A DNA stretch of 64,000 nt. It comes from Pseudoalteromonas spongiae UST010723-006. Its GTDB lineage: Bacteria > Pseudomonadota > Gammaproteobacteria > Enterobacterales > Alteromonadaceae. Position 1 is the first letter of the stretch. Each line of letters starts with the position of its first letter. Under the pieces are notes generated by a model that did not search any database, had not been told where the DNA came from, and worked only from the letters and a program-made list of their open reading frames with translations. The position numbers were made by a program, and so were the translations under genes. Where the stretch lies: positions 2,343,001 through 2,407,000 of the forward strand of contig NZ_CP011039.1 of the NCBI RefSeq assembly GCF_000238255.3. Reading direction: 5' to 3'. This document shows, one piece after another, positions 16,860-52,242 of this stretch.

Positions 16860-18068
16860 ATGGCTTATTGGGTTATCCAAGCTTTAATTGCTCTCATATT
16901 ATTACTTGGCGGAATGTCAAATATAGACACCGACAAGGAAATGCATGGCCTTGCAAACACATTCGCGTATGCAGGCATACGCACTTTAAGCTTCTTTCTT
17001 ATTACTCACTTTTTGATTCGCGCCCCCATTAATTTCTTACGCAACAAAGAAGTCGGATTTATGAAAGTCTTCATCTGTGGCTTAGTCTTTGTTACTGTTG
17101 GCTCATTTATAGGCAAGAGCATTCGCGATATAAGCAGAGACATGTTTGTGCCTATTGATAACGAAATTGCCTATTATCGAGCAAACCCCGATAAAGATCC
17201 GCTTAATCAGGTTAAAACAAACAGCGAAGTTGAAAAAAGCAAAGACATTCAAGATGAAACACCAACTAATGCGACAGCTAAATCTGAATTTAAAAGAGGT
17301 TTTAAAGAAGGGTTTGACCAAGCACAACTAAAAGCGCGAGAGGAACTTGAGAAAATTAATAGTGGAGACCAAGAAGCGATTGATCGTGCCTCTTCGAAAC
17401 AATTAAAGTCTCAATTCGGTGCATTCCTTTTTTGGTTGTTTTGCTATCTACCGTTGTCAGCATTAAAACGTCGCTTCCAAGTTAAAACACAACTTAAGCA
17501 AAGTCAGATCGCATTACTAATGAGTCAGCTTAATCCGCATTTTTTGTTTAATTCATTAAACAGTATTCGCGGTATGATTTTCGAAGATAAACAGCTTGCT
17601 AAAGAGTTAATCGATAAACTAAATGAGCTTTTTCGCTACAACTTAACAGCAAATAAGCACCCTACGGTAAAATTAAAAGAAGAATTACGCATTTGTGAAT
17701 TCTATCTTGATATTGAGCATATTCGCCTTGAAGAGCGCTTGTTAATTGAAATGCATGTAGATGAAACCTGCTTAAATATCAAAGTCCCCACTATGGGCAT
17801 TCTTACGTTAATTGAAAACTCAATTAAGCACGGTATCGCTCCAAGGCAAGATCAAAGCCTGCTGATTGTTGATATTGCTAAACAAAAAAACCAACTTGTG
17901 GTGACCGTAAGTAATCCAATTTACACAGGCACCTATAAAGTCGAAAGCACAGGTACAGGGCAAGAAAACCTAATTAAACGCTTACAGCTAATGTATAACG
18001 AAAACGCCTCGTTAAACGCTGAGTTTAAAGACGATAAATATATCGCATGTTTAACATTGCCAATTTAA
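16860..18068 (+). CDS. LytS-family sensor histidine kinase (intact)
   Basis: A 402-residue membrane kinase of the His_kinase (LytS/YehU) type. Two TM segments come early, then a charged linker (residues about 115-175) and another hydrophobic segment (FGAFLFWLFCYLPLSAL). The H-box NPHFLFNSLNSIRGMI has the phospho-histidine at residue 227. The ATP-binding N-box LIENSIKHGI and a G-box region (ESTGTGQENLIKRL) are intact. An AAAGGA ribosome site precedes the ATG. It is first of a cluster with two related but degenerate genes and a LytTR regulator, and is the only member expected to autophosphorylate. Confidence 0.9.
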   Translation: MAYWVIQALIALILLLGGMSNIDTDKEMHGLANTFAYAGIRTLSFFLITHFLIRAPINFLRNKEVGFMKVFICGLVFVTVGSFIGKSIRDISRDMFVPIDNEIAYYRANPDKDPLNQVKTNSEVEKSKDIQDETPTNATAKSEFKRGFKEGFDQAQLKAREELEKINSGDQEAIDRASSKQLKSQFGAFLFWLFCYLPLSALKRRFQVKTQLKQSQIALLMSQLNPHFLFNSLNSIRGMIFEDKQLAKELIDKLNELFRYNLTANKHPTVKLKEELRICEFYLDIEHIRLEERLLIEMHVDETCLNIKVPTMGILTLIENSIKHGIAPRQDQSLLIVDIAKQKNQLVVTVSNPIYTGTYKVESTGTGQENLIKRLQLMYNENASLNAEFKDDKYIACLTLPI

Positions 18069-18086
18069 AAAGGTCAAAATCCGGTT

Positions 18087-19190
18087 ATGAATTTCAGTTA
18101 CATTCGAAATACCAGTCCTAACTATTGGCGATACCAAGGGCCGATCTTATTTGTATCAGCCTTAGTAACTCTCTTAGGTGTCTGGGGGATTTTTCAAGAA
18201 CCTGACGGCCAAGAAATACCCATATTTCAACTTGGTTGGTACGGGGCATTAGCTCTCAGCACTTACCAGCTCATAATGATATTTGCGGCATTTCATATCG
18301 TGCTGCGCGGCGTTTATAAACACTATAAAACCTATGCTAAAACTAAGTGGAAACTGTTTTTACTGCTATTAGCTAGTTCCACCATCACTTCGTTAGTGAT
18401 TATTGGTTTAGATTTTTTACCTATATTTCTCACATTAGTACCTTACTCTCTTGAAGAGTACTTAAACAGTATCATGCATTTGGATGGCTTAGGCGAGTCA
18501 CTCGTAGCCTATGTTATTTATAATATTGTGTTTAATTTAGTGTGGGCTTACTGTTACGTACTTGCAGCTAGTATTTCAAATTATAAGCAGCTCGCATTAT
18601 TGCTTAAAAAGCAAAAACTACAAATTTTAACCAACCGTGTTAACCCTGAGTTTTTATTCGATACCATGGAAGCGATTAAGCATCAAATTGATATTGATGA
18701 AGAAAAAGCGGCAGATCTTGTAACCAAAGCATCGGACCTTTTTCGTTACAACTTGATGTCGAGTAAAACAGCCGATGCAAAGCTCAATGATGAACTGGCC
18801 AGTTTAGCCAATTACCTAGAGTTACTTGAAGAACAAAAGCGTGCGCCAAGTAGTTACAGCTTAAAGCTTCATGACGCTGAGATATCACCTAATATCCCAA
18901 GTATGTCGCTTATTTTTATCTGTTCGTTTTTACTCAATACTGCACGTAACCGCAACGGCGAACTGACGATAGCAAGCTTTATAAAACACCAAAAATATCG
19001 TATCGAAATTGCGCATCAAAGCCACGGTAAGTTCTTTTTAGATACTGAACATTTCGATAATGTAAAAAGCCGTTTAGAGCACCAGTATAGTAACGATGCC
19101 AGCATCGTTTTAGTTAAAAGCGGTAAGCGAAGAAAAGTAGTGATTGAACTGCCAATTGACTGGCAACAACAACTAGAAAAAACAGCCTAA
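18087..19190 (+). CDS. LytS-like pseudokinase lacking the phospho-histidine
   Basis: A 367-residue membrane protein with four TM segments in the first 180 residues and a C-terminal domain clearly related to the preceding kinase. The H-box reads NPEFLFDTMEAI, so glutamate (residue 188) replaces the phosphoacceptor histidine. The position of the N-box (MSLIFICSFLLNTARNRNGE) has no ENxxKHG motif, and no glycine-rich G-box is seen. It can hardly be a kinase. A sensor or adaptor subunit that dimerises with its neighbours is my inference. The frame is intact. It starts 18 bases after the kinase gene. Confidence 0.8.
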   Translation: MNFSYIRNTSPNYWRYQGPILFVSALVTLLGVWGIFQEPDGQEIPIFQLGWYGALALSTYQLIMIFAAFHIVLRGVYKHYKTYAKTKWKLFLLLLASSTITSLVIIGLDFLPIFLTLVPYSLEEYLNSIMHLDGLGESLVAYVIYNIVFNLVWAYCYVLAASISNYKQLALLLKKQKLQILTNRVNPEFLFDTMEAIKHQIDIDEEKAADLVTKASDLFRYNLMSSKTADAKLNDELASLANYLELLEEQKRAPSSYSLKLHDAEISPNIPSMSLIFICSFLLNTARNRNGELTIASFIKHQKYRIEIAHQSHGKFFLDTEHFDNVKSRLEHQYSNDASIVLVKSGKRRKVVIELPIDWQQQLEKTA

Positions 19191-19292
19191 CCATTCATCT
19201 CACTTTTTTGCCGTTTATCATTTTAATTGGCGAGATAATTTTAAAATCGATAGACTCAGAATAGTCTGTCAAAAAAGAGACTTTCTTTTTAT

Positions 19293-19847
19293 ATGTTTGA
19301 AAAAAATGCGGAAGCACCATTAAATCCACACTTCTTGTTTAATAGCATGAATGCTATCCGCTATATGATTTTCGAAAATCAAGATTTAGCGAGCGACTTA
19401 CTTGGCAAACTTGCCGAGTTAATTCGCTACCAACTAAACGACGGTGTAGGTAATACCAGCGTTAGCGACGACTTAACTCAATTAGCACACTTGCTTGATT
19501 TAGAAGCGCTACGCCTTGAAGAACGAATTACAATAACAAAACAGTTCACTAAGCTTTCCAGCCCATATCCTTTAGCATGCTCTTTGCTACTGCCTATAGT
19601 TGAGTATGTATTCATCAAAAAAGATATTTACAGCGTTAGCCACAATGAACTACTTGTAAGCACCAATGAAACTGGCGGTGCGCTTACTTTTACACTTAAA
19701 TTAACGCAAACACCAAAAATAAAGTCAGGTGACTTGCCATTAAACGAGCTAATTGCGAAGCTCGGCCTTGGTAATGTTTGCAGTGCAACACAAACCTGTG
19801 ATGCGACCACTTACACGATGGAGTTAACTTTTAACAATGAGTATTAG
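19293..19847 (+). CDS. Truncated soluble LytS-like protein with H-box only
   Basis: A 184-residue protein starting just before the H-box (NPHFLFNSMNAIRYMI, His13). There is no membrane part, and an in-frame TAG at 19251 with no good start after it excludes a longer N-terminus. The ATP-binding part lacks the N-box (SLLLPIVEYVFIKKD in its place) and a clear G-box. It thus keeps the phosphoacceptor histidine but probably cannot bind ATP. It overlaps the response-regulator gene by 11 bases. It may be phosphorylated in trans or act as a dimerisation partner. Inference only. Confidence 0.78.
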   Translation: MFEKNAEAPLNPHFLFNSMNAIRYMIFENQDLASDLLGKLAELIRYQLNDGVGNTSVSDDLTQLAHLLDLEALRLEERITITKQFTKLSSPYPLACSLLLPIVEYVFIKKDIYSVSHNELLVSTNETGGALTFTLKLTQTPKIKSGDLPLNELIAKLGLGNVCSATQTCDATTYTMELTFNNEY

Positions 19848-20559
19848 AATAATAATTGTTGATGACGAACGTCTTGCTCGCAGTGAATTAAAACGCCTAC
19901 TATCAAAACATAGCCAAATTGAAATTGTTGATGAGGCTAAAAATGCCGAAGAAGCGAGTGAAAAGATCGCTGAGCACAAACCGGATGCAATCTTCTTAGA
20001 TATTCATATGCCTGGCGCAACCGGTTTAGAGCTTGCAGAATCACTCGGTGATGACGTGAATATTATCTTCTGTACTGCTTACGACCAGTTTGCCGTAGAA
20101 GCGTTTTCACTAAACGCGATGGACTATCTAGTAAAACCAGTAAACCCTGCTCGTTTAGCCGAAAGCATTGAAAAGTTAGAAAAACGTCTTGAACAAAGCG
20201 CATCGGCAAGTGGCCTACCGGATGATCACAAACTAATGGTGAAATACGGCGAAACTATGCGCATTATTGAGCTGAAAGAGATCATTCGTTTTGAGTCAAT
20301 TGGTAACCATGCAGCGATTTATACACCGCACGGTAAAGCGTACTTGCACAGCTCGCTTAATAAAATTGAAGCAAAATTAGACGAAAGGCATTATTTCCGT
20401 GCCAGTCGCTCAGACATTATTCGTCTAGATGCAATTGAAAGCATGGAACAGGCAATTAGCTATGGCTTAACAGCGACGCTAAGCAATGGTCAAACGGTTG
20501 AAATCTCTCGCAGACAAGCAACCAAATTAAGACAACTACTTGAGTTTACGCAGCTGTAA
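19837..20559 (+). CDS. LytR/AlgR-type response regulator (REC-LytTR)
   Basis: A 240-residue regulator. The REC domain has acidic residues in IIVDDE, the phosphoacceptor Asp55 in AIFLDIHMPG and the Lys in DYLVKPVNP. The C-terminal LytTR DNA-binding domain includes IIRFESIGNHAAIYT and YFRASRSDIIRLDAIE. It is translationally coupled to the truncated kinase-like gene and is the obvious output of the cluster. Targets are unknown. The stop codon is followed immediately by an eight-copy heptamer repeat. Confidence 0.93.
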   Translation: MSIRIIIVDDERLARSELKRLLSKHSQIEIVDEAKNAEEASEKIAEHKPDAIFLDIHMPGATGLELAESLGDDVNIIFCTAYDQFAVEAFSLNAMDYLVKPVNPARLAESIEKLEKRLEQSASASGLPDDHKLMVKYGETMRIIELKEIIRFESIGNHAAIYTPHGKAYLHSSLNKIEAKLDERHYFRASRSDIIRLDAIESMEQAISYGLTATLSNGQTVEISRRQATKLRQLLEFTQL

Positions 20560-41755: not shown

Positions 41756-42661
41756 GTGCCAGATCACGACTTCATTATTAAACTGCAGCAACTCAGTTTT
41801 CGATACAAAAGTAATGATGTCGATACGCTTAATAATCTTTCTCTTGTGATAAAGCCAGGTGAATGCGTTGGTTTAATTGGGCCAAATGGTGCGGGTAAAT
41901 CGACCTTAATCTCGATTATTACTGGCTTACTCAGTGCGCAAACAGGCTCTGTTTGCTATGGTGATAACGCTACACCACGACAATTTATCAAACAACAGCT
42001 GGCACTTGTGCCGCAAGAATACGCTTTTTATGAGCGTCTTACGGTTCAGCAAAACCTAGCGTATTTTGCCAGTTTACTCAAAACGAATAACTGCGATGAG
42101 TTAGTTACAAACACCTTAGCCCAATGCCAACTTAGTCACGTAAGCAGCAAAAAAGCCGATAATTTATCAGGTGGCTATAAACGCCGTTTAAACTTGGCAA
42201 TTGCGCTGTTAAAACAGCCTAGCGTATTGATTTTAGATGAGCCAACGGTAGGAATTGACCCGGTTTCTCGTGAGCTAATTATGCAGCTACTTGCCACATT
42301 AAAACAGCAAGGCACAACCATTATTTACACCTCGCATTTACTTACCGAAGTAGAGCAAATTTGCGATACGATTTATGGTTTAAAACGCGGTGAACTTATT
42401 CATATAACAGCTCACAGCGAAAACGCGCCACTGCAAATTAGCTTTGAAAGTGCATTGTGCGACGATGCCATCGCGGGCATTACTGCGTTATTACCAAATA
42501 CACAATTAAACTCACCAAGCCAAATTGAAATAAGCTCGTGCAAAGAGCCACTTGCTTTGCTCGCACAGCTTACCCAGGTTTCATTACCACCTATTAGTGA
42601 AATCAATTATTCAACACTGCACCTCGAAAACTACTATAAAGAGCTGTTTACAGAACTATGA
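41756..42661 (+). CDS. ABC transporter ATP-binding subunit (biosynthetic cluster)
   Basis: A 301-residue ABC ATPase: Walker A GPNGAGKST, Q-loop LVPQEYAFYE, signature LSGGYKRRL, Walker B VLILDEPTVG and H-loop TSHLL. About 90 further residues follow the ATPase core, as in drug/polyketide exporters of the ABC-2 class. The start is a GTG with an AGGGAG site. It overlaps the permease gene by four bases. Its position as first gene of a cluster with acyl-chain synthesis enzymes suggests export of the product. Confidence 0.92.
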   Translation: MPDHDFIIKLQQLSFRYKSNDVDTLNNLSLVIKPGECVGLIGPNGAGKSTLISIITGLLSAQTGSVCYGDNATPRQFIKQQLALVPQEYAFYERLTVQQNLAYFASLLKTNNCDELVTNTLAQCQLSHVSSKKADNLSGGYKRRLNLAIALLKQPSVLILDEPTVGIDPVSRELIMQLLATLKQQGTTIIYTSHLLTEVEQICDTIYGLKRGELIHITAHSENAPLQISFESALCDDAIAGITALLPNTQLNSPSQIEISSCKEPLALLAQLTQVSLPPISEINYSTLHLENYYKELFTEL

Positions 42662-43809
42662 TTAAAGCGAGTATCATTAAAGAATTCCGGCTTATTTTTA
42701 GCGACTTACACAGCCTAGCTGTGCTCTTTTTAATGCCGATTAGCTTTATGTTGATTATGACATTTGCACTGAGTAATAAAGCGGAAGATTTAACTAAATC
42801 AATTAATTTAAACATCACCCAGCAGGATAGCAATTTGGCTGAATCGCTGCTCAAAGCCTATTTAAGTGATGTGGGATTTAGCCAAGATATAAACCAACAA
42901 GCCGATGTTACGCTTGAGCTTGCCAGTGGCTTTGAAAATGCCCTATTTGCTGATCAGGCAAATTCAGTGATCACTTTTAGTCATGTAGCTAGTTTATCGC
43001 CTCAGATGACCAGTTTAGCAAAGCAGCATTTGCAAATTGCTTTGGCGAAAGTAAAGCTCCATATTTACTTACTCGATGCCGGGCAATTATCTGAGTCCAT
43101 GCCGCTTGCAGAGCAAATGTCACGAGTGAGCGAGCAAACCAACCAATTAAAGTTAGTGTCGTTTAAGCGCGAAGAAAACTACCAAGCAGTACAGCACAGT
43201 ATTCCATCTTGGTTAGTATTTGGTGTGTTTTTTATTGTTTTGCCGATTTCAATTACGCTTATTAGTGAAAGCCAAAACGGTACGTTATTGCGCGTTACCA
43301 CCTTTCCAATTTCAAATACCGCATATTTTTCGGCCAAACTATTGGCGTTTTATTTAGTCAGTTTCACGCAAGCGATTGTGCTGATGATTATTGGCTTTAC
43401 GGTTATACCTAAATTGGTCGATGCGCCTAGCCTTAATATAGTGCAGCTCGTGCCCGCCCTTCCTTTATTAGCCGTAACCTGTGCCACCGCCGTGACCTTT
43501 GGCGCGGTTATCGCAAGCCAAATAAAAAGCCATGAACAAGCGATTGTAATAGGCGGCGGCACTAACATTTTACTTGCGGCGATTAGTGGCTTAATGGTGC
43601 CTCTAGACATCATGCCCAAGGCGATGCAAACTATAGCGCAACTTTCGCCTATGCACTGGGCGCAATCAGGACTTAAAAATTTATTTATCTCAGACTCGGA
43701 CGTACTCAGCTTAACCACTGCCCTACCTTTAATAATCTTTTCAGTGATTTGTGGTGTATTGGCACTGTGGCTATTCGAGTTAAAAGTTAGGAAATTACAA
43801 TGGAAATAG
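42658..43809 (+). CDS. ABC-2 type transporter permease (biosynthetic cluster)
   Basis: A 383-residue inner-membrane protein with one TM near the N-terminus (LAVLFLMPISFMLIMTFAL), a large extracytoplasmic segment of about 150 residues and five or six TM helices at the C-terminus (WLVFGVFFIVLPISITLI, LLAFYLVSFTQAIVLMIIG, IVIGGGTNILLAAISGLMV and others). This is the ABC2_membrane_3 arrangement. It partners with the preceding ATPase (four-base overlap) and overlaps the ACP gene by ten bases, showing tight translational coupling across the cluster. Confidence 0.9.
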   Translation: MIKASIIKEFRLIFSDLHSLAVLFLMPISFMLIMTFALSNKAEDLTKSINLNITQQDSNLAESLLKAYLSDVGFSQDINQQADVTLELASGFENALFADQANSVITFSHVASLSPQMTSLAKQHLQIALAKVKLHIYLLDAGQLSESMPLAEQMSRVSEQTNQLKLVSFKREENYQAVQHSIPSWLVFGVFFIVLPISITLISESQNGTLLRVTTFPISNTAYFSAKLLAFYLVSFTQAIVLMIIGFTVIPKLVDAPSLNIVQLVPALPLLAVTCATAVTFGAVIASQIKSHEQAIVIGGGTNILLAAISGLMVPLDIMPKAMQTIAQLSPMHWAQSGLKNLFISDSDVLSLTTALPLIIFSVICGVLALWLFELKVRKLQWK

Positions 43810-44081
43810 AAGAATTAAAAAACAAACTTAAACAACTTATTGTTGAAGAGTGTGACAAGGAAGATGAGATAGAATGGCACGAAATCGAAGACGATGCGCC
43901 GCTGTTTGGCAATGACTCTAAAGTCGGTTTAGATTCACTTGATGCCCTACAACTTGCTTTAATTATCAAACAAAACTTTGGTATTCGTGTTGAAAGTTCA
44001 AAAGAAAGTCGTAAAGACCTTTACTCAATAAACACCATAGTTGCACTTATTGAACGCGAAAAAAGTAAAGACCTTGCCTAG
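43800..44081 (+). CDS. Acyl carrier protein (biosynthetic cluster)
   Basis: A 93-residue acidic carrier protein. The phosphopantetheine attachment serine is Ser46 in VGLDSLDALQ. The surrounding four-helix pattern is preserved. It is not the housekeeping acpP, which is usually beside fabF/fabD and of about 78 residues. It is bracketed by exporter and ketosynthase genes, so it should carry the growing chain of the cluster's product. Confidence 0.9.
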   Translation: MEIEELKNKLKQLIVEECDKEDEIEWHEIEDDAPLFGNDSKVGLDSLDALQLALIIKQNFGIRVESSKESRKDLYSINTIVALIEREKSKDLA

Positions 44082-45159
44082 TTATATTATTGCTTCTGAT
44101 TCATGGTCGGCCTGTGGCCGCGGCAATGAATTACAGTTTTCCACAACGCAGTTTCAAACAGTAAAAACGGCAGAGCAAATTGACGTGCCGTTTTTTGCAA
44201 TGCAAGATTTACCTGTTGATACCAGCGAAAAGCGTATTCTTTCATCGCTCTCAAGTGTTGTAGGTAATGCTGTAAAAAAAGCAGGACTAACTGCTGAACA
44301 ACTTGCAAATACAGCGATTATTCTCGGTTCAACCAGCTTAGATGTCAGTGCGGTAGAAGCCAAACCTGAGCAAACTATTTGGCTTACAAATACCGACCGT
44401 TTAAGTGGTTATTTAAAGCAGCAGTTTGCGACCTCTGACTTACACCTAACCATCAACACAGCATGCACTGCGGGCACTAACGCGGTTATTTTAGCCGACC
44501 AGTTGCTAAACCAAAATAAAGCGCAGTATGTCATTGTTGTTGGCTGTGAGTTTTACAACCCACTAACGGTAGAAGGCTTTTATTCACTCGATTTACAAAG
44601 TAGCCAAGGGCTACGTACCTTTAGTGAGTCTCGCTCAGGGTTGGTACTTGGTGAAGGCGTTGCTGCGTTAGTTATGGCAAAACACACCACCTCACCATCT
44701 CAGTTAAAATTGATTGGTTATGGTTCAGGCTGTGATCACTACAGTTTAACCATGACACAAGAATCTGGCGTACATATTCAAGCCATTATTGAAATGGCGC
44801 TTAAAAAAGCCAATCTTGATGCTAAGCAAATTGATTTGATAAAAGTACACGGCACGGCCACCTTAAATAACGACCAGGCTGAGCTAAACGCATTTAATCA
44901 ATGGCTTGAACATGCGCCTATTTTTGCCTTTAAACCTTTTACTGGTCACACCTTAGGGGCTTGTGGCGTATTAGAATTAGCATTAATGGACTACTTGCAT
45001 CAGCAACAGCTGGTTATACCAAGGCCAGAATACCTAAAGACAGATGCGATTTTAAGGCCGTTTAGTGACGCAAAACCACTATCAAGTTACCAACATATAT
45101 TACTTAATCACTGTGGTTTTGGTGGTAATAACGCGGCATTAATTATTGAGGTGGCTTGA
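44074..45159 (+). CDS. Beta-ketoacyl-ACP synthase (KAS I/II type)
   Basis: A ketosynthase of about 361 residues with a complete Cys-His-His triad: NTACTAGTNAV (Cys), KVHGTATLNND (His) and FKPFTGHTLGACG (His). It is somewhat shorter than FabF (about 410). No ATG is available at the N-terminus. The frame opens at a TTG at 44041 and has another TTG at 44074, just ahead of PSYIIASDSWSACG, which I choose because it overlaps the ACP end by only eight bases. The start is uncertain. It overlaps the next gene by four bases. Confidence 0.87.
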   Translation: MPSYIIASDSWSACGRGNELQFSTTQFQTVKTAEQIDVPFFAMQDLPVDTSEKRILSSLSSVVGNAVKKAGLTAEQLANTAIILGSTSLDVSAVEAKPEQTIWLTNTDRLSGYLKQQFATSDLHLTINTACTAGTNAVILADQLLNQNKAQYVIVVGCEFYNPLTVEGFYSLDLQSSQGLRTFSESRSGLVLGEGVAALVMAKHTTSPSQLKLIGYGSGCDHYSLTMTQESGVHIQAIIEMALKKANLDAKQIDLIKVHGTATLNNDQAELNAFNQWLEHAPIFAFKPFTGHTLGACGVLELALMDYLHQQQLVIPRPEYLKTDAILRPFSDAKPLSSYQHILLNHCGFGGNNAALIIEVA

Positions 45160-45740
45160 TGACATTAAACGTACTGAACTACGCGATTGTTGACGAACCA
45201 CGCGACAAAACCAATAAGCAACTGCGCCAAGAATTAAAACACGATTTTGCAATTAATGGACGCAGACTCGATAATTTTACGTTAACCGCAATGAAAGCGG
45301 TTGCCAAAATTGCACCGAGCTTAAATAGTGAAAACCGTTACGCACTGTTTAGCGCTGCACAGTATTTTTCATTGGAATTATTGCAAAGTTTACTGCTCGA
45401 TTTAGCACAAAATACACCGCTTAAACCGCTCGATTTTGTTGCAACCGTAGGCAATGCAGCAAATTACTATTTGGCAAAACAGTTCAACCTAGAAGCAACC
45501 AATTTGTTCTTAGGGTGCACCGACAACAAACTAAGTAAAACGTTGTTAGTGGCAGAACTGGATTTATCTGAGCAAAACTCCGACGCTGCAATTATTGTAA
45601 TTTGGCAAGAAAGTGAAAAAACGCGCCGCTGTTACGCGCTTTTAGTTGAATTAGCACCGCAGCAAGCAACAGACGTATATGCACACGAACTAATCGCTCA
45701 ATTGGATGCTGGTGCAAAAACACCATTTGTGGTGAACTAA
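45156..45740 (+). CDS. Ketosynthase-like / chain-length-factor-like protein
   Basis: A 194-residue protein resembling only the N-terminal half of a ketosynthase. The pattern ALFSAAQYFSLELLQSLLLD, then PLDFVATVGNAANYYLAKQF and a later LLVAELDL strand follows the Ketoacyl-synt_2 type proteins found beside ketosynthases in aryl-polyene clusters. The active-site Cys-His-His set is absent. A chain-length factor or ketosynthase partner is my inference. It overlaps the ketosynthase gene by four bases. Confidence 0.65.
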   Translation: MMTLNVLNYAIVDEPRDKTNKQLRQELKHDFAINGRRLDNFTLTAMKAVAKIAPSLNSENRYALFSAAQYFSLELLQSLLLDLAQNTPLKPLDFVATVGNAANYYLAKQFNLEATNLFLGCTDNKLSKTLLVAELDLSEQNSDAAIIVIWQESEKTRRCYALLVELAPQQATDVYAHELIAQLDAGAKTPFVVN

Positions 45741-45751
45741 CTCATTCTATT

Positions 45752-45785
45752 TGAAAGATAAACGATTATTTTCGTTTATCTTTCA
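45752..45785. terminator. Bidirectional terminator inside the biosynthetic cluster
   Basis: Perfect 13-base arms TGAAAGATAAACG and CGTTTATCTTTCA around an eight-base loop. It separates the forward ABC-ACP-KS unit from the reverse DUF2141 gene, whose last codons form the right arm. Confidence 0.75.
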
Positions 45786-46218
45786 TTAATTTTATTTGGC
45801 TTTTACTGTTTTCAGATAATTTAAAGCTGGTTTTGGCAATTTTAGGTTTGCCGCCAAATAACATAGGGTTATTGGAAAAACCTACCGCTTCTTTAGGAAT
45901 ACCTGCGCGAGATAAATCGAGCTTTTGATTGGCGTTTTCGTCAACATATAAACGAACTGCGTACCAAGCCGTTGGCAAGTCGTTAAAATCAACCAAGACA
46001 TTTTGACCATTAATCGCAATATGCTGCTCTTGATAAGGCGTAAGCGACTGCCAATCTTTTGAATCTTGCGAAAAACCGAGTTCTGACTGAAAAAGCTGAA
46101 CATGCAAAGTACCCAAAGCAGCCACATCATTTTCAACCTCGAGTGATAAGCTATTAGCGTTGGAGACAGCGCTAAATAAGGCAATCGACAAAATAATACT
46201 TCGCTTAAACATTAACAT
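45766..46218 (-). CDS. Exported DUF2141 protein
   Basis: A protein of about 150 residues with a signal peptide (FKRSIILSIALFSAVSNANS). The DUF2141 signature is visible: an amphipathic beta region, LPTAWYAVRLYVDENANQKL, then GIPKEAVGFSNNPMLFGG. Function is unknown; the family is periplasmic. Several starts are possible (46245 GTG, 46227, 46218, 46212); I favour 46218 or 46212. It lies between the two halves of the biosynthetic cluster but on the opposite strand. Confidence 0.8.
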   Translation of the reverse strand: MLMFKRSIILSIALFSAVSNANSLSLEVENDVAALGTLHVQLFQSELGFSQDSKDWQSLTPYQEQHIAINGQNVLVDFNDLPTAWYAVRLYVDENANQKLDLSRAGIPKEAVGFSNNPMLFGGKPKIAKTSFKLSENSKSQIKLMKDKRK

Positions 46219-46304
46219 ACAAAACATTGTCCAATTAAGATTCACTTAGATATTAATGTTTTATATAATAACTTCTTTTTAATGGAATAAATACTGTCTT
46301 AATA

Positions 46305-47219
46305 ATGCGCAAAGTTCTAACTGTTAACTATTCACAAACTGGGCAACTATCAAGCATTTTGGACTCAGTTGTTGGTCCTCTCAAGGAAAATAAAGAGATC
46401 ACAGTTGATCACTTAGTGATCAAACCTAAGGTAGATTTCCCCTTTCCTTGGCCGTTCGGTCAGTTCTTTCGTGTATTTCCTGAAACCGTCGCAATGGATC
46501 CAATTGAGCTAGAACCGTTTGAAACTCAATTTGAAAAATACGACTTAATTATCCTTAGTTATCAAGTGTGGTTTTTAACCCCTTCGTTACCAATTTCATC
46601 TTTCTTGCAATTACCGCAAACAAAACAGCTTTTTAAAGACACCCCTGTTGTTACGTTGATCGGTTGTCGTGGCATGTGGTTATCAGCGCAAGAAAAAATG
46701 AAAAAGCTATTGGCCGATGCCGATGCGAGCTTGGTCGATAACGTCGTGCTTAGCGATGACTGCGGGGCTGCATTTAGCTTTTTAGCGACACCTCTTTGGA
46801 TGATGACAGGAAAGAAAAAGCCACTTAGTTGGGTGCCTGCGGCAGGTGTATCACAAACAGATATCGCTGATGCAAAACGCTTTGGTTATGCTATCAGACA
46901 ACGCTTGTTATTGAATGATACCCCGATTACCCGCCCAATGTTTTTTGGCATGAAGGCAGTTAAGATAAATGAAAAATTGATTGCGAGTGAACGCGTTGGC
47001 AACCATAGCTTCTCTATTTGGTCGAAAATTCTTAAAAAATTCGGCTCACAGCAAAGTTTTGGCCGTGCCGTTGGATTAAGTGTGTATGTTGTATTCTTAG
47101 TGACTTTAATCCTCACCGTCGTGCCGATTACCGCAATTATTAAAAAGCTAATAGCGCCGTTAACACGCAAAAAAATTGCAAAACAAAAAGCCTATTACGC
47201 TGAACCATCTGGAGAGTAG
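46305..47219 (+). CDS. DarA-like dialkylresorcinol condensing enzyme
   Basis: A 304-residue protein with a flavodoxin-like start (MRKVLTVNYSQTGQLSSILD) in which SQTGQ would hold the FMN phosphate. The second half contains AFSFLATPLWMMTGKKKPLSW, and a C-terminal hydrophobic segment (AVGLSVYVVFLVTLILTVVP) suggests membrane attachment. Proteins of this shape are commonly annotated as dialkylresorcinol condensing enzyme DarA and sit beside a KAS III-like DarB. In that system two beta-ketoacyl units are joined to a cyclic precursor. The exact role here is inferred. It ends six bases before the KAS III gene. Confidence 0.78.
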   Translation: MRKVLTVNYSQTGQLSSILDSVVGPLKENKEITVDHLVIKPKVDFPFPWPFGQFFRVFPETVAMDPIELEPFETQFEKYDLIILSYQVWFLTPSLPISSFLQLPQTKQLFKDTPVVTLIGCRGMWLSAQEKMKKLLADADASLVDNVVLSDDCGAAFSFLATPLWMMTGKKKPLSWVPAAGVSQTDIADAKRFGYAIRQRLLLNDTPITRPMFFGMKAVKINEKLIASERVGNHSFSIWSKILKKFGSQQSFGRAVGLSVYVVFLVTLILTVVPITAIIKKLIAPLTRKKIAKQKAYYAEPSGE

Positions 47220-47224
47220 TACAT

Positions 47225-48373
47225 ATGGGAAGTCCTGTTTATATTACAGCGATGGCTGACGCTTTACCGAACCAGCCTGTATCAAACAAAGAAATGGAAA
47301 ATCTGCTCGGAATGGCTGGCAATAAACCATCTCGAGCGCGCGCTGTAATTTTGCGAAGCAACAAAATTAAGCAACGTTATTACGCAATCGATCCAGAAAC
47401 CAAAGAAATGACGCACACAAATGCGTCGCTTGCAGCACAAGCAGTAAAAGGCCTTTTTACTGATCCAACTGAACTTAATCAGATTCAAAGTTTAATTGCG
47501 AGTACCAGCCAAGCAGACCAAACATTACCTAACCATGGCGTAATGGTGCATGGTGAATTAAACAATCCGCCCTGCGAGGTGGTTTCAACATCAGGCATTT
47601 GTTTATGTGGTGTTACCGCACTTAAGTATGCCTACCTGAATATTAAAGCTGAAGAAGTTGAGAACAGCGTGGTGGTTGCCAGTGAAATTGCTTCTAGCAT
47701 GATGACTGCTAAAAATTTCGATAAAGAATGCCAGCACAAAGTTGAAACACTTGAACAAAACCCTGAAGTAGCCTTTGAAAAAGACTTCTTACGTTGGATG
47801 CTGTCTGACGGTGCAGGTGCCGCATTTTTACAAAACAAACCCGTGGCGGGACAACTCAATCTGAGAATTGATTGGATTGATATTATTTCGTACGCCAATG
47901 AATTAGAAACCTGTATGTACGCCGGTGCAGTAAAACAAGAAGACGGCCAACTTAAAAGCTGGACCCGTTTTTCTGCAGAAGAAGTGACACAACAGTCGAT
48001 TATGACGGTCAAGCAAGATGTGCGTTTACTGAACGAAAACATTGTAAAATATACCGTAGAAGACGCACTAAGCCGCATCATTGAAAAACGTAAACTCGTT
48101 GCCAGTGATTACGCCTTATTTGTACCTCACTACTCATCGGGTTATTTCAGAGAACGTTTATATGCAGGACTTGAAAACATCGACTTTACGATTCCATACG
48201 AAAAGTGGTACACCAATTTAACTGAGCGCGGCAACACAGGGTCGGCCTCTATTTTCATTATGTTATCGGAGCTACTGCGCTCGAATACCCTTGAAAAAGG
48301 TCAGCAGTTACTTTGTTACATTCCTGAAAGTGGTCGTTTCTCAAGTGGCTTTATGCAGTTAACGGTTGAATAA
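47225..48373 (+). CDS. Ketoacyl-ACP synthase III, DarB-like
   Basis: A 382-residue FabH-type thiolase-fold enzyme. Catalytic positions are the cysteines in TSGICLCGVTAL (residues 126/128), a histidine in LFVPHYSSGYF and an asparagine in ERGNTGSAS. It is larger than housekeeping FabH (about 317). The ATG is preceded by a GGAGAG ribosome site. Together with the preceding flavodoxin-like protein it forms a DarA-DarB-like pair. The aromatising DarC oxidoreductase is not seen in the window. Confidence 0.87.
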   Translation: MGSPVYITAMADALPNQPVSNKEMENLLGMAGNKPSRARAVILRSNKIKQRYYAIDPETKEMTHTNASLAAQAVKGLFTDPTELNQIQSLIASTSQADQTLPNHGVMVHGELNNPPCEVVSTSGICLCGVTALKYAYLNIKAEEVENSVVVASEIASSMMTAKNFDKECQHKVETLEQNPEVAFEKDFLRWMLSDGAGAAFLQNKPVAGQLNLRIDWIDIISYANELETCMYAGAVKQEDGQLKSWTRFSAEEVTQQSIMTVKQDVRLLNENIVKYTVEDALSRIIEKRKLVASDYALFVPHYSSGYFRERLYAGLENIDFTIPYEKWYTNLTERGNTGSASIFIMLSELLRSNTLEKGQQLLCYIPESGRFSSGFMQLTVE

Positions 48374-48375
48374 CG

Positions 48376-48807
48376 GTGAAAAAAGATCAAGTCCCTCAGG
48401 ACAATTCAAAAATTTACCAAGGGCAATCAAAGCTGGTATATGCCGTTGATGAAACGGGTCATTATGCCGGTGTAAAGTCGTCTGGCTGGGATGTCGAATC
48501 ATTTGCCACCCAGTATGCTGTTGACGATCTTAATCAACAAGCCGAAGATACGTTAGCCGAGGTCCAGCAAGGCAAGGTTTCTGCACTTAAGTACCATATG
48601 CTTTGCGCACGTCACGATGTGTTATCCCTATCTCAAGTTACGGGCTTTTTTCAGTGGCAAATAAAACGCCATTTTAAGCCGCGCGTATTTAACACACTTT
48701 CAGCCAAAGCCCTCGCCCGTTACTGCGAGGCACTTGCCATTACCGAACAACAATTAAAGGAAATACCAGAGCAACATGACGCCAGTTTTAAACAACCTAG
48801 TGCATAA
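48376..48807 (+). CDS. Hypothetical protein of the biosynthetic cluster
   Basis: A 143-residue soluble protein with a GTG start, two bases after the KAS III stop. Not recognised. It has a helical C-terminal half (VSALKYHMLCARHDVLSLSQ then TGFFQWQIKRHFKP and ALARYCEALAITEQQLKEIP) that resembles a helix-turn-helix fold, but I cannot assign it. Tight coupling (overlap of 32 bases with the BtrH-like gene) implies a role in the same pathway. Confidence 0.75.
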   Translation: MKKDQVPQDNSKIYQGQSKLVYAVDETGHYAGVKSSGWDVESFATQYAVDDLNQQAEDTLAEVQQGKVSALKYHMLCARHDVLSLSQVTGFFQWQIKRHFKPRVFNTLSAKALARYCEALAITEQQLKEIPEQHDASFKQPSA

Positions 48808-49786
48808 CCAATCTTCACATTGCGAAAGTGGCGTTGTATCAAATATGCTATCAACCAATGGCTTCAACATTTCTGAGCCAATGGCGTTTGGTATTTCATC
48901 GGCAATGAGCTTTGCCTATTTGCCATTCGTTAAAGTAGCCGGTATGCCACTGATTGCTTATCGCATGCCACCAAAAACCATTATTAATACAGTGACTAAA
49001 AAGCTTGGCATTACCTTGCACCGAGAAAAATTCTCAAGTGCTGACAAAGGTATGGCAAAACTAGATGAGGTTTTAGCCGAAGGCAAAGTAGTTGGTTTAC
49101 AAACCTCAGTTTATTGGCTGCCCTACTTCCCTGATGAAATGCGCTTTCACTTTAACGCACACAATTTAATGGTTTACGGAATTGATGCTAACGATCACTA
49201 CCAAATTAGTGACCCTGTTTTTGAACATACTGTAACCTGCCCTAAACGTGATTTAGAAAAAGCACGCTTTAGTAAAGGTGCACTTGCACCAAAAGGCTTA
49301 ATGTATTGGGTTGATAATGTGCCAAAAGAAGTCGATTTAACACCACATATTTATTCTGGCATAAAGAAAACAGCAAAAATGATGGCTGGTTTACCAGTTC
49401 CGGGCATTAACTTGTTTGGCACCCAAGGTATGGAAAAGTTAGCGAAAGATATTGAAAGACTCGATCGCAAACCAAAGAAATGCCGTCATTTATTCTTGGC
49501 GCATATTGTACGAATGCAAGAAGAAATCGGCACAGGTGGCGCTGGTTTTCGCTTTATGTTTGCCAGCTTTTTAGATGAAGCTGCAAACTATACAAACAAT
49601 CAAGCAATGTTTGAAGCATCGCAAATGGCAACTGAAATCGGTGATAACTGGCGTAACCTTGCGTCGCTTGCTGTTAATCACTGCCGCAGTAAGACACCTG
49701 TACCACTTAGCGATATCGCGGCGCAGTTACGTGATTGCGCTAAGCAAGAAACAGAACTTAGAGCCCGCTTACTGGCAATTAAATAA
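48776..49786 (+). CDS. BtrH-like acyltransferase (BtrH_N-DUF4872)
   Basis: A 336-residue protein. The N-terminal BtrH_N domain has a papain-like set: Cys16 in NQSSHCESGVVSNML, a histidine in FNAHNLMVYGID and an aspartate in QISDPVFEH. The C-terminal half, from KKTAKMMAGLPVPGINLFG on, matches the DUF4872 arrangement. In butirosin biosynthesis BtrH transfers an acyl chain from an ACP to an amine. A similar transfer from the cluster's ACP is a fair inference. It is the last gene of the cluster. Confidence 0.82.
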   Translation: MTPVLNNLVHNQSSHCESGVVSNMLSTNGFNISEPMAFGISSAMSFAYLPFVKVAGMPLIAYRMPPKTIINTVTKKLGITLHREKFSSADKGMAKLDEVLAEGKVVGLQTSVYWLPYFPDEMRFHFNAHNLMVYGIDANDHYQISDPVFEHTVTCPKRDLEKARFSKGALAPKGLMYWVDNVPKEVDLTPHIYSGIKKTAKMMAGLPVPGINLFGTQGMEKLAKDIERLDRKPKKCRHLFLAHIVRMQEEIGTGGAGFRFMFASFLDEAANYTNNQAMFEASQMATEIGDNWRNLASLAVNHCRSKTPVPLSDIAAQLRDCAKQETELRARLLAIK

Positions 49787-49953: not shown

Positions 49954-52242
49954 ATGGCGAGCCGAATTAATTTTCTCAGTGTTGCGATACTTTTAGCTAT
50001 TTCAGCTCAAGCAAATCATGCTGACGCTATTGATTACGATTTAGAATCTCTACAAGCACTTAGCTTAAAAGACTTGCTCAATGTGCAAGTGCAAACTGCT
50101 AGCCGCAAAAAGCGCTCACTTCTTGATGCCCCCGCAAATATTAAAATAGTCACCGCAGAGCAAATAAAGCAACGTGGATACCAAAACCTGATTGATATCT
50201 TACGTGATGTACCCGGTTTTGATTTTAGCAATCACTATGATGGTGCTGGGGAATACACTAGCCACAGTATCAATCGTGGGATCGGTGGCACCCCAGGTAA
50301 TGTGCAATTGCTCATTATGATTGACGGCATTGTACAAAACCATATCGCATTTAATTGGTCGCAGCCTTGGGGCAATCAGCAAATTCTCGCTGATATTGAA
50401 CGCATTGAAATAGTACAAGGCCCAGGCTCTGCAAGTTATGGTGCCAATGCGTATTCGGGCGTTGTTCACTTTATTACAAAAAGTGCCGCAAACACATCAG
50501 GGCAGCGCATGAGCTTACTTGCCGGAGAGCACGGCACACAGTCTGCGCAGTTTATGCTTAACCATCAACTTTCAGAATTGCGCTTGCAACTTGCTGGTCG
50601 TTATTTTAAACGCGATGGAGATTCAGGGCTTGAAAGCTACGACCCTGCAGGCTACTTTGCCAATCATTTATTTCCGAATTATCAACTACAGAGTTATAAC
50701 GCCAACGGCTACACCACAAATACGCCACACCCATTTGCTAACCAATATCAAGGCGCGGGATTTAATAACCAAAGCGATGATTCAGCATTAAGAGGTAAAC
50801 TAGTTTGGCAAAATCCACATCAGTATAAGCGTGGCATTCAACTCATTAAGGTAGGCTTTAATACTTGGCAGCAGGAACAAGGTCTCGGCAGCTATGTAAC
50901 AGGTTTTGAATACCAAACACGCGATGCATCGTATAAAAAGCACCAAAGCGCACAGCACTATTACTTAGATTTTGACTATCAATATTCGCCCGAGCTGATA
51001 TTGCAAACGCGGATATGGCAAAGAGAAAACGAACAAAAACCCGATACCGGCTTTAAGTACAGCTATCGCTTTGTAGATTTAATAAAAAGTTATCATAGCG
51101 TGAGTGAGCAACGCGCATTTGAACAACAACTCAATATCTCAAAGCTATACGATATAGACTGGCAAATTGGTTATCGCTTAATGCGCTCAAAGAAAATGGG
51201 CCAAGTGGTTTCGCTCGGCGATTATCAAATAGGTCAACAAGCTTCAACATCATCTGATTGGTTAGCGGCAGAGGCTGGATTAGGACTCAATGTATACAGC
51301 GAATACCCTCTTGAGCATGTTGATGAACAAGCGGTGTATGTAGAAGCCCAAGGCTACCTAAATGATCGTCTAAATTACACCTTAGGAATGCGCTATGACC
51401 ACAGTGATGCCTACGGCGGAACAACGAACCCAAGAGCTGCAATTAACTATAACGCCAGCCAGAGCTTAGTGTTTAAACTGCTCTATGGACAAGCCTTCCG
51501 CGAGCCAAGTATTTTTGAGCTCAATGATGAGTTTCGTGGCAATCCAAACCTAAAACCAGAACAAGTCAGAACCACTGAGCTTGTTAGCCATTATTTTTAC
51601 GAACAGCAAAAACACCAGTTAGATATAAAGACAGCATTCTACTACAGCCAAGAAGATAACCGTATTAGGCTAGATATTAGTGATGAGAATAATAATTTCC
51701 GCTACGACACTAGCAGAACAGTGAGCTATGAAAACGCAAAACACAGCGACTATTGGGGCATCACGTTAGATACGAGTTATACCTACAATCAAAGTATATC
51801 GGCGTACTTTAATTATCATTACTCCGATGGCGACCAAGATTTAACAGCGAATGCGCTTAATCACACCACAGATCACAAAATTAATTGGGGCATTAATTAC
51901 CGCGTTATGCCAAACCTTACAATTGACTTACGCGCAAATCACCTAATCAATCGCAATGCACCAACCAGTAACGCTTATTTTGATAAGCATGCACCTAGTT
52001 TATCGCTATATAACTTAGTGCTATCAGCACCAAATTTAACAATTTCGGGCATAAACCTTACACCACAACTCATTGTTAAAAACCTATTTGATAAAAAATA
52101 CACCTTGGTTGGTAGGCAAGATGGCGCCAGCGACATTAATGAGTATGATATTGAGCGAAATGCCGATCCTCAGGGTTTCACACCAGCCTATCACCCGCAA
52201 ATGGGACGCACCCTAGCGTTACAAGTATTGGTAAGCTTTTAA
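49954..52242 (+). CDS. TonB-dependent outer-membrane receptor
   Basis: A 762-residue receptor with a signal peptide (MASRINFLSVAILLAISAQA), then SLKDLLNVQVQTASRKKRSL, a plug domain (VTAEQIKQRGYQNLIDILRD, PGSASYGANAYSGVVHFITK) and a long beta-barrel ending in aromatic LALQVLVSF. The SL-x-DLL-N-V-x-V-x-T-A-S-R opening is shared with a subgroup found next to signalling proteins. It is followed by a YfiR-like protein (opposite strand) and a hybrid kinase. The ligand is unknown. It may belong to that module or serve the neighbouring biosynthetic cluster. Confidence 0.9.
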   Translation: MASRINFLSVAILLAISAQANHADAIDYDLESLQALSLKDLLNVQVQTASRKKRSLLDAPANIKIVTAEQIKQRGYQNLIDILRDVPGFDFSNHYDGAGEYTSHSINRGIGGTPGNVQLLIMIDGIVQNHIAFNWSQPWGNQQILADIERIEIVQGPGSASYGANAYSGVVHFITKSAANTSGQRMSLLAGEHGTQSAQFMLNHQLSELRLQLAGRYFKRDGDSGLESYDPAGYFANHLFPNYQLQSYNANGYTTNTPHPFANQYQGAGFNNQSDDSALRGKLVWQNPHQYKRGIQLIKVGFNTWQQEQGLGSYVTGFEYQTRDASYKKHQSAQHYYLDFDYQYSPELILQTRIWQRENEQKPDTGFKYSYRFVDLIKSYHSVSEQRAFEQQLNISKLYDIDWQIGYRLMRSKKMGQVVSLGDYQIGQQASTSSDWLAAEAGLGLNVYSEYPLEHVDEQAVYVEAQGYLNDRLNYTLGMRYDHSDAYGGTTNPRAAINYNASQSLVFKLLYGQAFREPSIFELNDEFRGNPNLKPEQVRTTELVSHYFYEQQKHQLDIKTAFYYSQEDNRIRLDISDENNNFRYDTSRTVSYENAKHSDYWGITLDTSYTYNQSISAYFNYHYSDGDQDLTANALNHTTDHKINWGINYRVMPNLTIDLRANHLINRNAPTSNAYFDKHAPSLSLYNLVLSAPNLTISGINLTPQLIVKNLFDKKYTLVGRQDGASDINEYDIERNADPQGFTPAYHPQMGRTLALQVLVSF

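Follow-up and report, generated by a model that had tools for sequence, protein, structure and literature searches.

The closest described systems to the locus reported here are the dar genes for arcuflavin in Azoarcus sp. BH72, the flexirubin-type clusters of Chitinophaga, and the hybrid resorcinol-aryl polyene clusters of Pseudoalteromonas and marine Pseudomonas. For Azoarcus, Table 1 gives a locus, azo0283-azo0293, with darA (aromatase), darB (cyclase), darC (acyl carrier protein, ACP), darD (conserved hypothetical), darE (BtrH-like), darF and darI (ABC transporter), darJ (ketosynthase, KS), and darK (hypothetical) (PMC3949708). The polyene genes lie at other loci; mass spectrometry found a pigment containing both parts, for which an ester link was predicted, and the mutants described were hit in the polyene genes arcK and arcT, none in dar genes (PMC3949708). 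Flexirubin has an ester structure; xanthomonadins, which are related polyenes, protect against light and oxidants, whereas flexirubin was said there to have no known role (PMC3949708). In Chitinophaga pinensis, darA and darB expressed heterologously gave a resorcinol, and the joining step of flexirubin-type pigments was ascribed in 2014 to the ligase-like FlxW (PMC3992019). The hybrid clusters of Pseudoalteromonas distincta/arctica coincided with yellow-orange colonies (PMC9966250), and in that of marine Pseudomonas the polyene part was like those of E. coli and V. fischeri (PMC10165715). Here we analyzed a window of 64,000 nucleotides from Pseudoalteromonas spongiae UST010723-006, positions 2343001-2407000 of contig 1 in a two-contig genome of 4.75 Mb, whose contig 2 (C2) has 1.6 Mb. 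We conclude that the genes at 41756-49786 of this window are very probably the dar module of a dialkylresorcinol-aryl polyene ester pigment pathway of the flexirubin/arcuflavin type. Most likely they constitute the resorcinol-making half of a yellow-orange pigment pathway whose polyene half is on the other contig.

The original prediction, made from the window sequence alone, had described these genes as a compact forward cluster. Nine forward open reading frames (ORFs) were verified at the coordinates that it gave, mostly overlapping or spaced by a few nucleotides; overlooked, however, was a 564-nt gap between 45740 and 46305 that holds a DUF2141 gene on the minus strand. The features are as follows.

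41756-42661, plus strand: ABC transporter ATPase (PF00005, 115 bits; GTG start; operon 1; darF of Azoarcus)
42658-43809, plus strand: ABC-2 permease (PF12698, 93 bits; darI of Azoarcus)
43800-44081, plus strand: acyl carrier protein (PF00550, 25.4 bits, cut-off 20.8; darC of Azoarcus)
44041-45159, plus strand: beta-ketoacyl-ACP synthase (PF00109/PF02801; darJ of Azoarcus)
45156-45740, plus strand: short ketosynthase homologue, weakly chain-length factor (CLF)-like, 194 aa (PF13723 sub-threshold; profile-profile match)
45752-45785, plus strand: terminator-like hairpin of 14 pairs with a T-rich tail, between operon 1 and the DUF2141 gene
45766-46245, minus strand: DUF2141 protein (PF09912, 81.5 bits), antisense between both operons
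46241-46269, plus strand: promoter-like site upstream of darA (10 of 12; suggestive only)
46305-47219, plus strand: DarA, putative dialkylresorcinol aromatase (no Pfam or NCBIfam match; function by Azoarcus Table 1)
47225-48373, plus strand: DarB, StlD/DarB-type ketosynthase (cyclase) (NF005293, 581 bits, cut-off 450)
48376-48807, plus strand: DarG-family protein (NF053536 DarG_fam, 180 bits, cut-off 70; darD position of Azoarcus)
48776-49786, plus strand: DarH, BtrH-like cysteine acyltransferase (NF053550, 478 bits, cut-off 300; BtrH_N + DUF4872; darE of Azoarcus)

Compared with the Azoarcus table (the table and not the sequences was used), the locus has the same darA, darB, small conserved protein, BtrH-like protein, ABC ATPase and permease, ACP, KS, and further hypothetical protein, and in both organisms the polyene genes are unlinked. 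The DarG and DarH of NCBI, which carry different letters, were matched to the Azoarcus darD and darE by kind and position, and darK was likened by position to the CLF-like gene, since it follows darJ as the CLF-like gene follows the KS gene here. In contrast, the Azoarcus locus contains a PHD/PilT pair, has no DUF2141 gene listed, and has its two gene blocks in the other order; its polyene starter is 3-hydroxybenzoate (XanB2 type), whereas the Pseudoalteromonas genome has an ammonia lyase (PMC3949708). The Chitinophaga clusters share DarA, DarB, DarG, DarH, ABC ATPase, permease, ACP, and KS in one row (PMC3992019), but their proteins are distant, with DarB about 45-48% identical, and the short CLF-like protein was not detected in them by tblastn. 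Loci from several phyla have most of the gene set together as one unit, more than chance would give. The aromatising DarC, which the original prediction had regarded as missing, proved to be a matter of naming: in the Azoarcus table the aromatase is DarA and DarC is the ACP (PMC3949708), and both are present.

DarB matched the StlD structures 5gk0, 5gk1, and 5gk2 in the PDB (E 3.5e-138) and the broader model NF005293, but missed the NCBIfam model resorcinol_DarB NF053539 (488 bits versus a cut-off of 550). Residues C126, H302, and N337 were invariant in 101 sequences, giving the Cys-His-Asn arrangement of StlD/DarB-type ketosynthases; Cys-His-Asn is the KAS III triad. In these locus alignments we kept ORFs that could be closed within the locus (for example, 67 of 70 for DarH and 87 of 89 for DarA) and that were 0.75-1.35 times as long as the window protein; close relatives were included, at least one assembly was present twice (L054 = L081), and G481/L067 and G515/L068 were apparently the same genomes too. 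Of 100 DarB loci, 89 also had a DarA homologue in the stretch around DarB (up to 21 kb), and here the DarA-like ORF ends 5 nt upstream of darB. DarA gave no match in Pfam or NCBIfam, and none in Pfam up to E 10. The flavodoxin fold originally proposed for DarA gained no support from that Pfam search or from the PDB sequence search, in which the sole match was a beta-lactamase at chance level (E 0.47). Two observations on DarB stand by themselves. Brenneria (L074) has a lone DarB, 56% identical, with no DarA, DarG, or DarH in its 21-kb stretch, and its genome, in which there is no DarH, has a polyene CLF; this DarB may differ in function. Paired nearby DarB copies were seen in several Bacteroidota loci (L115, L119, L126, L144) and perhaps represent two cyclase specificities.

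The small gene at 48376-48807, which had been left as an unknown, encodes a DarG-family protein: DarG (NF053536) and DarH (NF053550), the two proteins that mark the hybrid pathway, were both over their cut-offs. The comparison with DarA-DarB and flexirubin clusters that had been made from the letters alone was correct. DarG scored 135 of 170 bits against flexirubin_DarG NF053545, under the cut-off. Its structure model had a pLDDT of 79 overall and 92-98 over residues 51-130, the C-terminal part being modelled as a compact helical bundle that weakly resembles an XRE-type helix-turn-helix. A regulatory function for DarG was considered but not adopted: the best fold match was NGO0477 (E 0.015) and the best of XRE type C.BclI (E 0.046).

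The remaining core assignments of the original prediction, an exporter, an ACP, an intact KAS I/II, a KAS III, and a BtrH_N-DUF4872 protein, were likewise confirmed by Pfam and NCBIfam matches, with the residues of the KS and DarB in place. The ACP resembled PRK09184 (48 of 70 bits, below cut-off), and its S46 was invariant across 53 aligned sequences; judged by its position, we take S46 to be the phosphopantetheine site. In the KS, C142, K298, and H303 were invariant in 51 sequences and H270 was present in 49 of the 51; this alignment took the best KS match per locus, so that some rows may be polyene KSs. The expected catalytic residues, ACP S46, KS C142/H270/K298/H303, and DarB C126/H302/N337, are in place. 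The KS start codon is uncertain, being TTG at 44041 or a later in-frame TTG. The claim of a CLF-like half ketosynthase stood in part: the 194-aa protein gave 18.9 bits against PF13723, under the cut-off of 25, whereas profile-profile comparison (hhalign) with the PF13723 CLF of the polyene cluster on C2 gave E 1.5e-5 and a probability of 79, so that, by its sequence, it holds weakly as a divergent CLF-like protein. The ABC ATPase gene was found again near dar genes in related loci.

The polyene genes that had been thought missing were found at C2:523015-540112, reached by searches with the KS and the ApeP dehydratase family and read over 40 kb. The cluster starts with a PF13723 CLF, an acyltransferase-like protein, two ACP-like proteins, a membrane protein, an AMP ligase, and an ApeI dehydratase, continues with a glycosyltransferase, a lipid A acyltransferase-like protein, an aromatic ammonia lyase, a thioesterase-like protein, a LolA-like protein, and an MMPL exporter, and ends with a DUF3261 protein, a KS, an ApeP dehydratase, a FabG-type reductase, a second KS, and a MipA-like protein. 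Pfam matched eight of ten proteins searched, all but the membrane protein and the LolA-like one, and NCBIfam cut-offs were passed by the first ACP, both KSs, and the reductase. Labels were given by eye to the first acyltransferase, the second ACP, and the thioesterase-like, LolA-like, membrane, and MipA-like proteins. The genome thus has the polyene complement of a hybrid pathway (CLF, KS, ketoreductase, dehydratase, ACP, ammonia lyase, and exporter). Against the flexirubin models, the C2 proteins gave 353 of 700 bits for FlxA and 288 of 340 bits for FlxB. Because FlxA, FlxB, and flexirubin_DarG were all under their cut-offs, we did not file the genome as flexirubin itself, and by sequence the polyene half is not flexirubin proper; it differs from the Chitinophaga type also in its ApeP/ApeI-type dehydratases. 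With these dehydratases and the ammonia lyase it looks like the E. coli/Vibrio kind, partly on the description in PMC10165715. The argument from missing parts fails because DarA and DarC are present and the polyene genes are on C2; a like set with a known pigment is also in print (PMC3949708), and a new product deduced from absent genes is not borne out.

The reported hybrids resemble this genome, by description and not by sequence, in combining resorcinol genes with an aryl polyene cluster, but they sit at one place (PMC9966250, PMC10165715), whereas the halves here are split over two contigs, probably two chromosomes, which is notable for this kind of pathway. Could the cluster therefore make only a free dialkylresorcinol, exported as a signal or antioxidant and never linked to the polyene, with DarH acting elsewhere? 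The different contigs would agree with this, as would the formation of resorcinol by C. pinensis darA and darB alone (PMC3992019). The relatives argued otherwise. The closest DarB loci were those of Pseudoalteromonas sp. P1-9 (99%) and G4 (92%). Gene order was compared across Alteromonadales, as proposed in the original prediction. Two loci of Catenovulum agarivorans and three of Paraglaciecola keep the row ATPase-permease-ACP-KS-CLF-DUF2141 (minus)-DarA-DarB-DarG-DarH, and their polyene genes begin 0.7 to 2.1 kb past DarH on the opposite strand. In three congeners (G423, G476, G508) the dar genes form two blocks about 3 kb apart, directly adjoining the polyene cluster. Among 108 genomes of the genus, DarH was over cut-off in 11, all with PF13723, which itself was over cut-off in 48 (two of them barely). 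Eight of these 11 genomes have the two on a shared contig, at a distance of about 11 kb, whereas G000, G481, and G515 have them on separate contigs; G000, the sole two-contig assembly of these three, probably has them on two chromosomes. The Azoarcus loci are unlinked too, yet the pigment there holds both parts (PMC3949708).

Co-occurrence across genomes also bears on the free resorcinol. In a sample of 369 genomes of the class, 21 passed the cut-off for DarB and 18 that for DarH, every one of the 18 being among the 21 (Fisher P 8e-28); four genomes with DarB-like matches of 313-413 bits (G077, G302, G019, G224), under the cut-off, were left out of the DarB count, and the DarB model was passed by 1 of 14 control genomes. 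ApeP was over cut-off in 36 genomes, 16 of the 21 with DarB as against 20 of the other 348 (P 3e-14), and PF13723 was found in 21 of 21 DarB genomes, the search having covered those 21. In 80 named genomes with DarB loci, DarH was over cut-off in 68 (25 of 33 in one set and 43 of 47 in the other). In the set of 33, PF13723 was over cut-off in 24 of the 25 DarH genomes, 17 of them clear; the eight without DarH were seven cyanobacteria, none with PF13723, and Brenneria, which has it. For Bacteroidota the polyene marker was FlxB, whose curated cut-off was passed by 1 of 14 control genomes, although 13 of the 14 match at E 0.001 or better. FlxB was over cut-off in 45 of the set of 47, including all 43 with DarH; of the four lacking DarH over cut-off, two had FlxB, in one of which DarH is cut by the contig end, and two did not. 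DarH was therefore found almost only alongside polyene markers. Two candidate markers were set aside: Bacteroidota loci with just DarB-DarA did not mark resorcinol-only genomes, because a genome-wide search found DarH in 13 of 15, so that a gene missing near DarB may still be present elsewhere in the genome; and PF13723 was a weak polyene marker outside gammaproteobacteria, where many matches (E 1e-6 to 1e-16) were in long frames, possibly ordinary ketosynthases. The 7 of 7 cyanobacterial genomes that have DarB and DarA without DarH or PF13723 fit a free resorcinol. Here, in contrast, DarG and DarH are retained, DarH largely tracks the polyene markers, and the halves are close together in congeners; for this strain we consider a free resorcinol improbable.

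Several points weigh against the assignment to the ester pigment pathway. All the chemistry ascribed to this strain, its product included, is predicted from sequence, and the role of DarA is transferred by homology, not by a family model. The counts and P values ignore relatedness, and several genomes counted are incomplete metagenome-assembled genomes (MAGs). DarH is not universal, since G198, G221, and G104 (96, 82, and 85% complete) lack it but have DarB and polyene markers. Five of the 21 DarB genomes stayed under the ApeP cut-off, though they do have PF13723; a Sulfurimonas MAG has DarH without PF13723; and 7 of the 24 PF13723 matches in the set of 33, weak at E 8e-8 to 1e-13 and lying in frames of 358-821 aa, are possibly ordinary ketosynthases.

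We found in the open-access literature no experimental assignment of the enzyme that joins resorcinol to polyene. DarH has the architecture of BtrH, CtaG, and CcbD, a papain-like N-terminal domain with Cys-His-Asp and a helical C-terminal domain. The Cys-His-Asp set, with Cys16 as the cysteine, was invariant in the aligned homologues, and the confident structure model matched the cysteine acyltransferases CtaG, CcbD, and AziU3 at 11-14% identity; one fold relative was solved together with a carrier-protein domain. Structure alignments drew on 29 of the 67 listed DarH homologues and 26 of the 67 listed for DarG. When PDB sequences were searched with the profile of DarH, most matches were chance ones to coiled coils, and AziU3 and Azi29 came up only at E 1.6-1.7. 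Searched by tblastn, plasmids contained only BtrH-like proteins below 60% identity (24.7-29.3% among the 20 matches listed); 45 of 56 matching records were from Acinetobacter, 25.9% identical to DarH among the matches listed.

CtaG, CcbD, and BtrH make amides, and to our knowledge the cysteine acyltransferase fold is otherwise known for amide bonds. This would favour the original proposal that DarH is an ACP-to-amine transferase forming a new exported lipid or amine conjugate. No amine-building gene was seen in the module, however, and the polyene pathway is present in the genome; in Azoarcus, a comparable set of genes is listed for a pigment with a proposed ester link (PMC3949708). We give the amine conjugate very little credence. 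We infer that the BtrH-like protein is better read as forming an ester to a phenol. A different proposal keeps the pigment pathway and makes DarH a helper or thioesterase, with the ester made by another enzyme, such as a ligase like FlxW or an acyltransferase from the polyene cluster. FlxW was proposed for the joining step in C. pinensis (PMC3992019), and three genomes of the class have DarB and polyene markers without DarH; the invariant Cys-His-Asp, the fold relatives, including the one with a carrier-protein domain, and a distribution tracking resorcinol plus polyene speak for a catalytic DarH, and the helper role seems rather unlikely. From its sequence and model, DarH is the best candidate for esterifying the resorcinol with the polyene. 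We somewhat favour the view that it does so across the whole flexirubin/arcuflavin class, as an ester-forming member of the cysteine acyltransferase fold, here with substrates from two contigs, probably two chromosomes.

In the pathway that we propose, the module's own ACP and KS/CLF-like pair would probably supply a beta-ketoacyl-ACP from fatty-acid intermediates; the module has no ketoreductase. DarB, with the cyclase activity known from the literature, would condense fatty-acid intermediates to a cyclohexanedione, which DarA, the aromatase of the literature, would aromatise to a 2,5-dialkylresorcinol. In the C2 cluster, the ammonia lyase and the AMP ligase would channel an aromatic amino acid into an aryl polyene assembled on the cluster's ACPs, and DarH would load the polyene acyl group on Cys16 and transfer it to a hydroxyl of the resorcinol. 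The result would be a flexirubin-like ester, which the ABC exporter and the MMPL, LolA-like, and DUF3261 proteins of the C2 cluster may then move towards the outer membrane.

The locus is probably transcribed as two forward operons, 41756-45740 (five genes) and 46305-49786 (four genes), plus one reverse gene; we base this on the gap with its minus-strand DUF2141 gene, the hairpin, and the promoter-like site. Neighbour distances in operon 1 are, in order from the ATPase through permease, ACP, and KS to the CLF-like gene, -4, -10, -41, and -4 nt; in operon 2 they are +5 (darA-darB), +2 (darB-darG), and -32 nt (darG-darH). The region contains 19 terminator-like sites, against a mean of 9.6 in shuffles, and the hairpin at 45752-45785 has the longest stem. 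Because promoter-like sites are not commoner than in shuffles (19 versus 18.3, sd 4.3), the site before darA is only suggestive. All 7 named Alteromonadales loci (L067-L073), as well as G162 and three congeners, have a DUF2141 gene adjoining darA, and three further named loci (L107, L122, L130) have one upstream of it; the DUF2141 protein is a possible partner of the pathway. A TonB-dependent-receptor-like ORF (49954-52242) begins 167 nt downstream of darH. Of the relatives examined, only the two closest loci, both from Pseudoalteromonas (L067, L068), have it beside the module, so it is probably not part of the pathway genes. Elsewhere in the window, at 16860-20559, three neighbouring histidine-kinase-like ORFs are followed by a LytTR-like response regulator, as judged by eye from the ORF translations.

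These results remove a supposed orphan pathway and tie the locus to a known pigment class. They also make DarH a concrete candidate for the joining step of flexirubin-type pigments, and since the two halves of the pathway are physically apart in this genome, each should be cleanly deletable.

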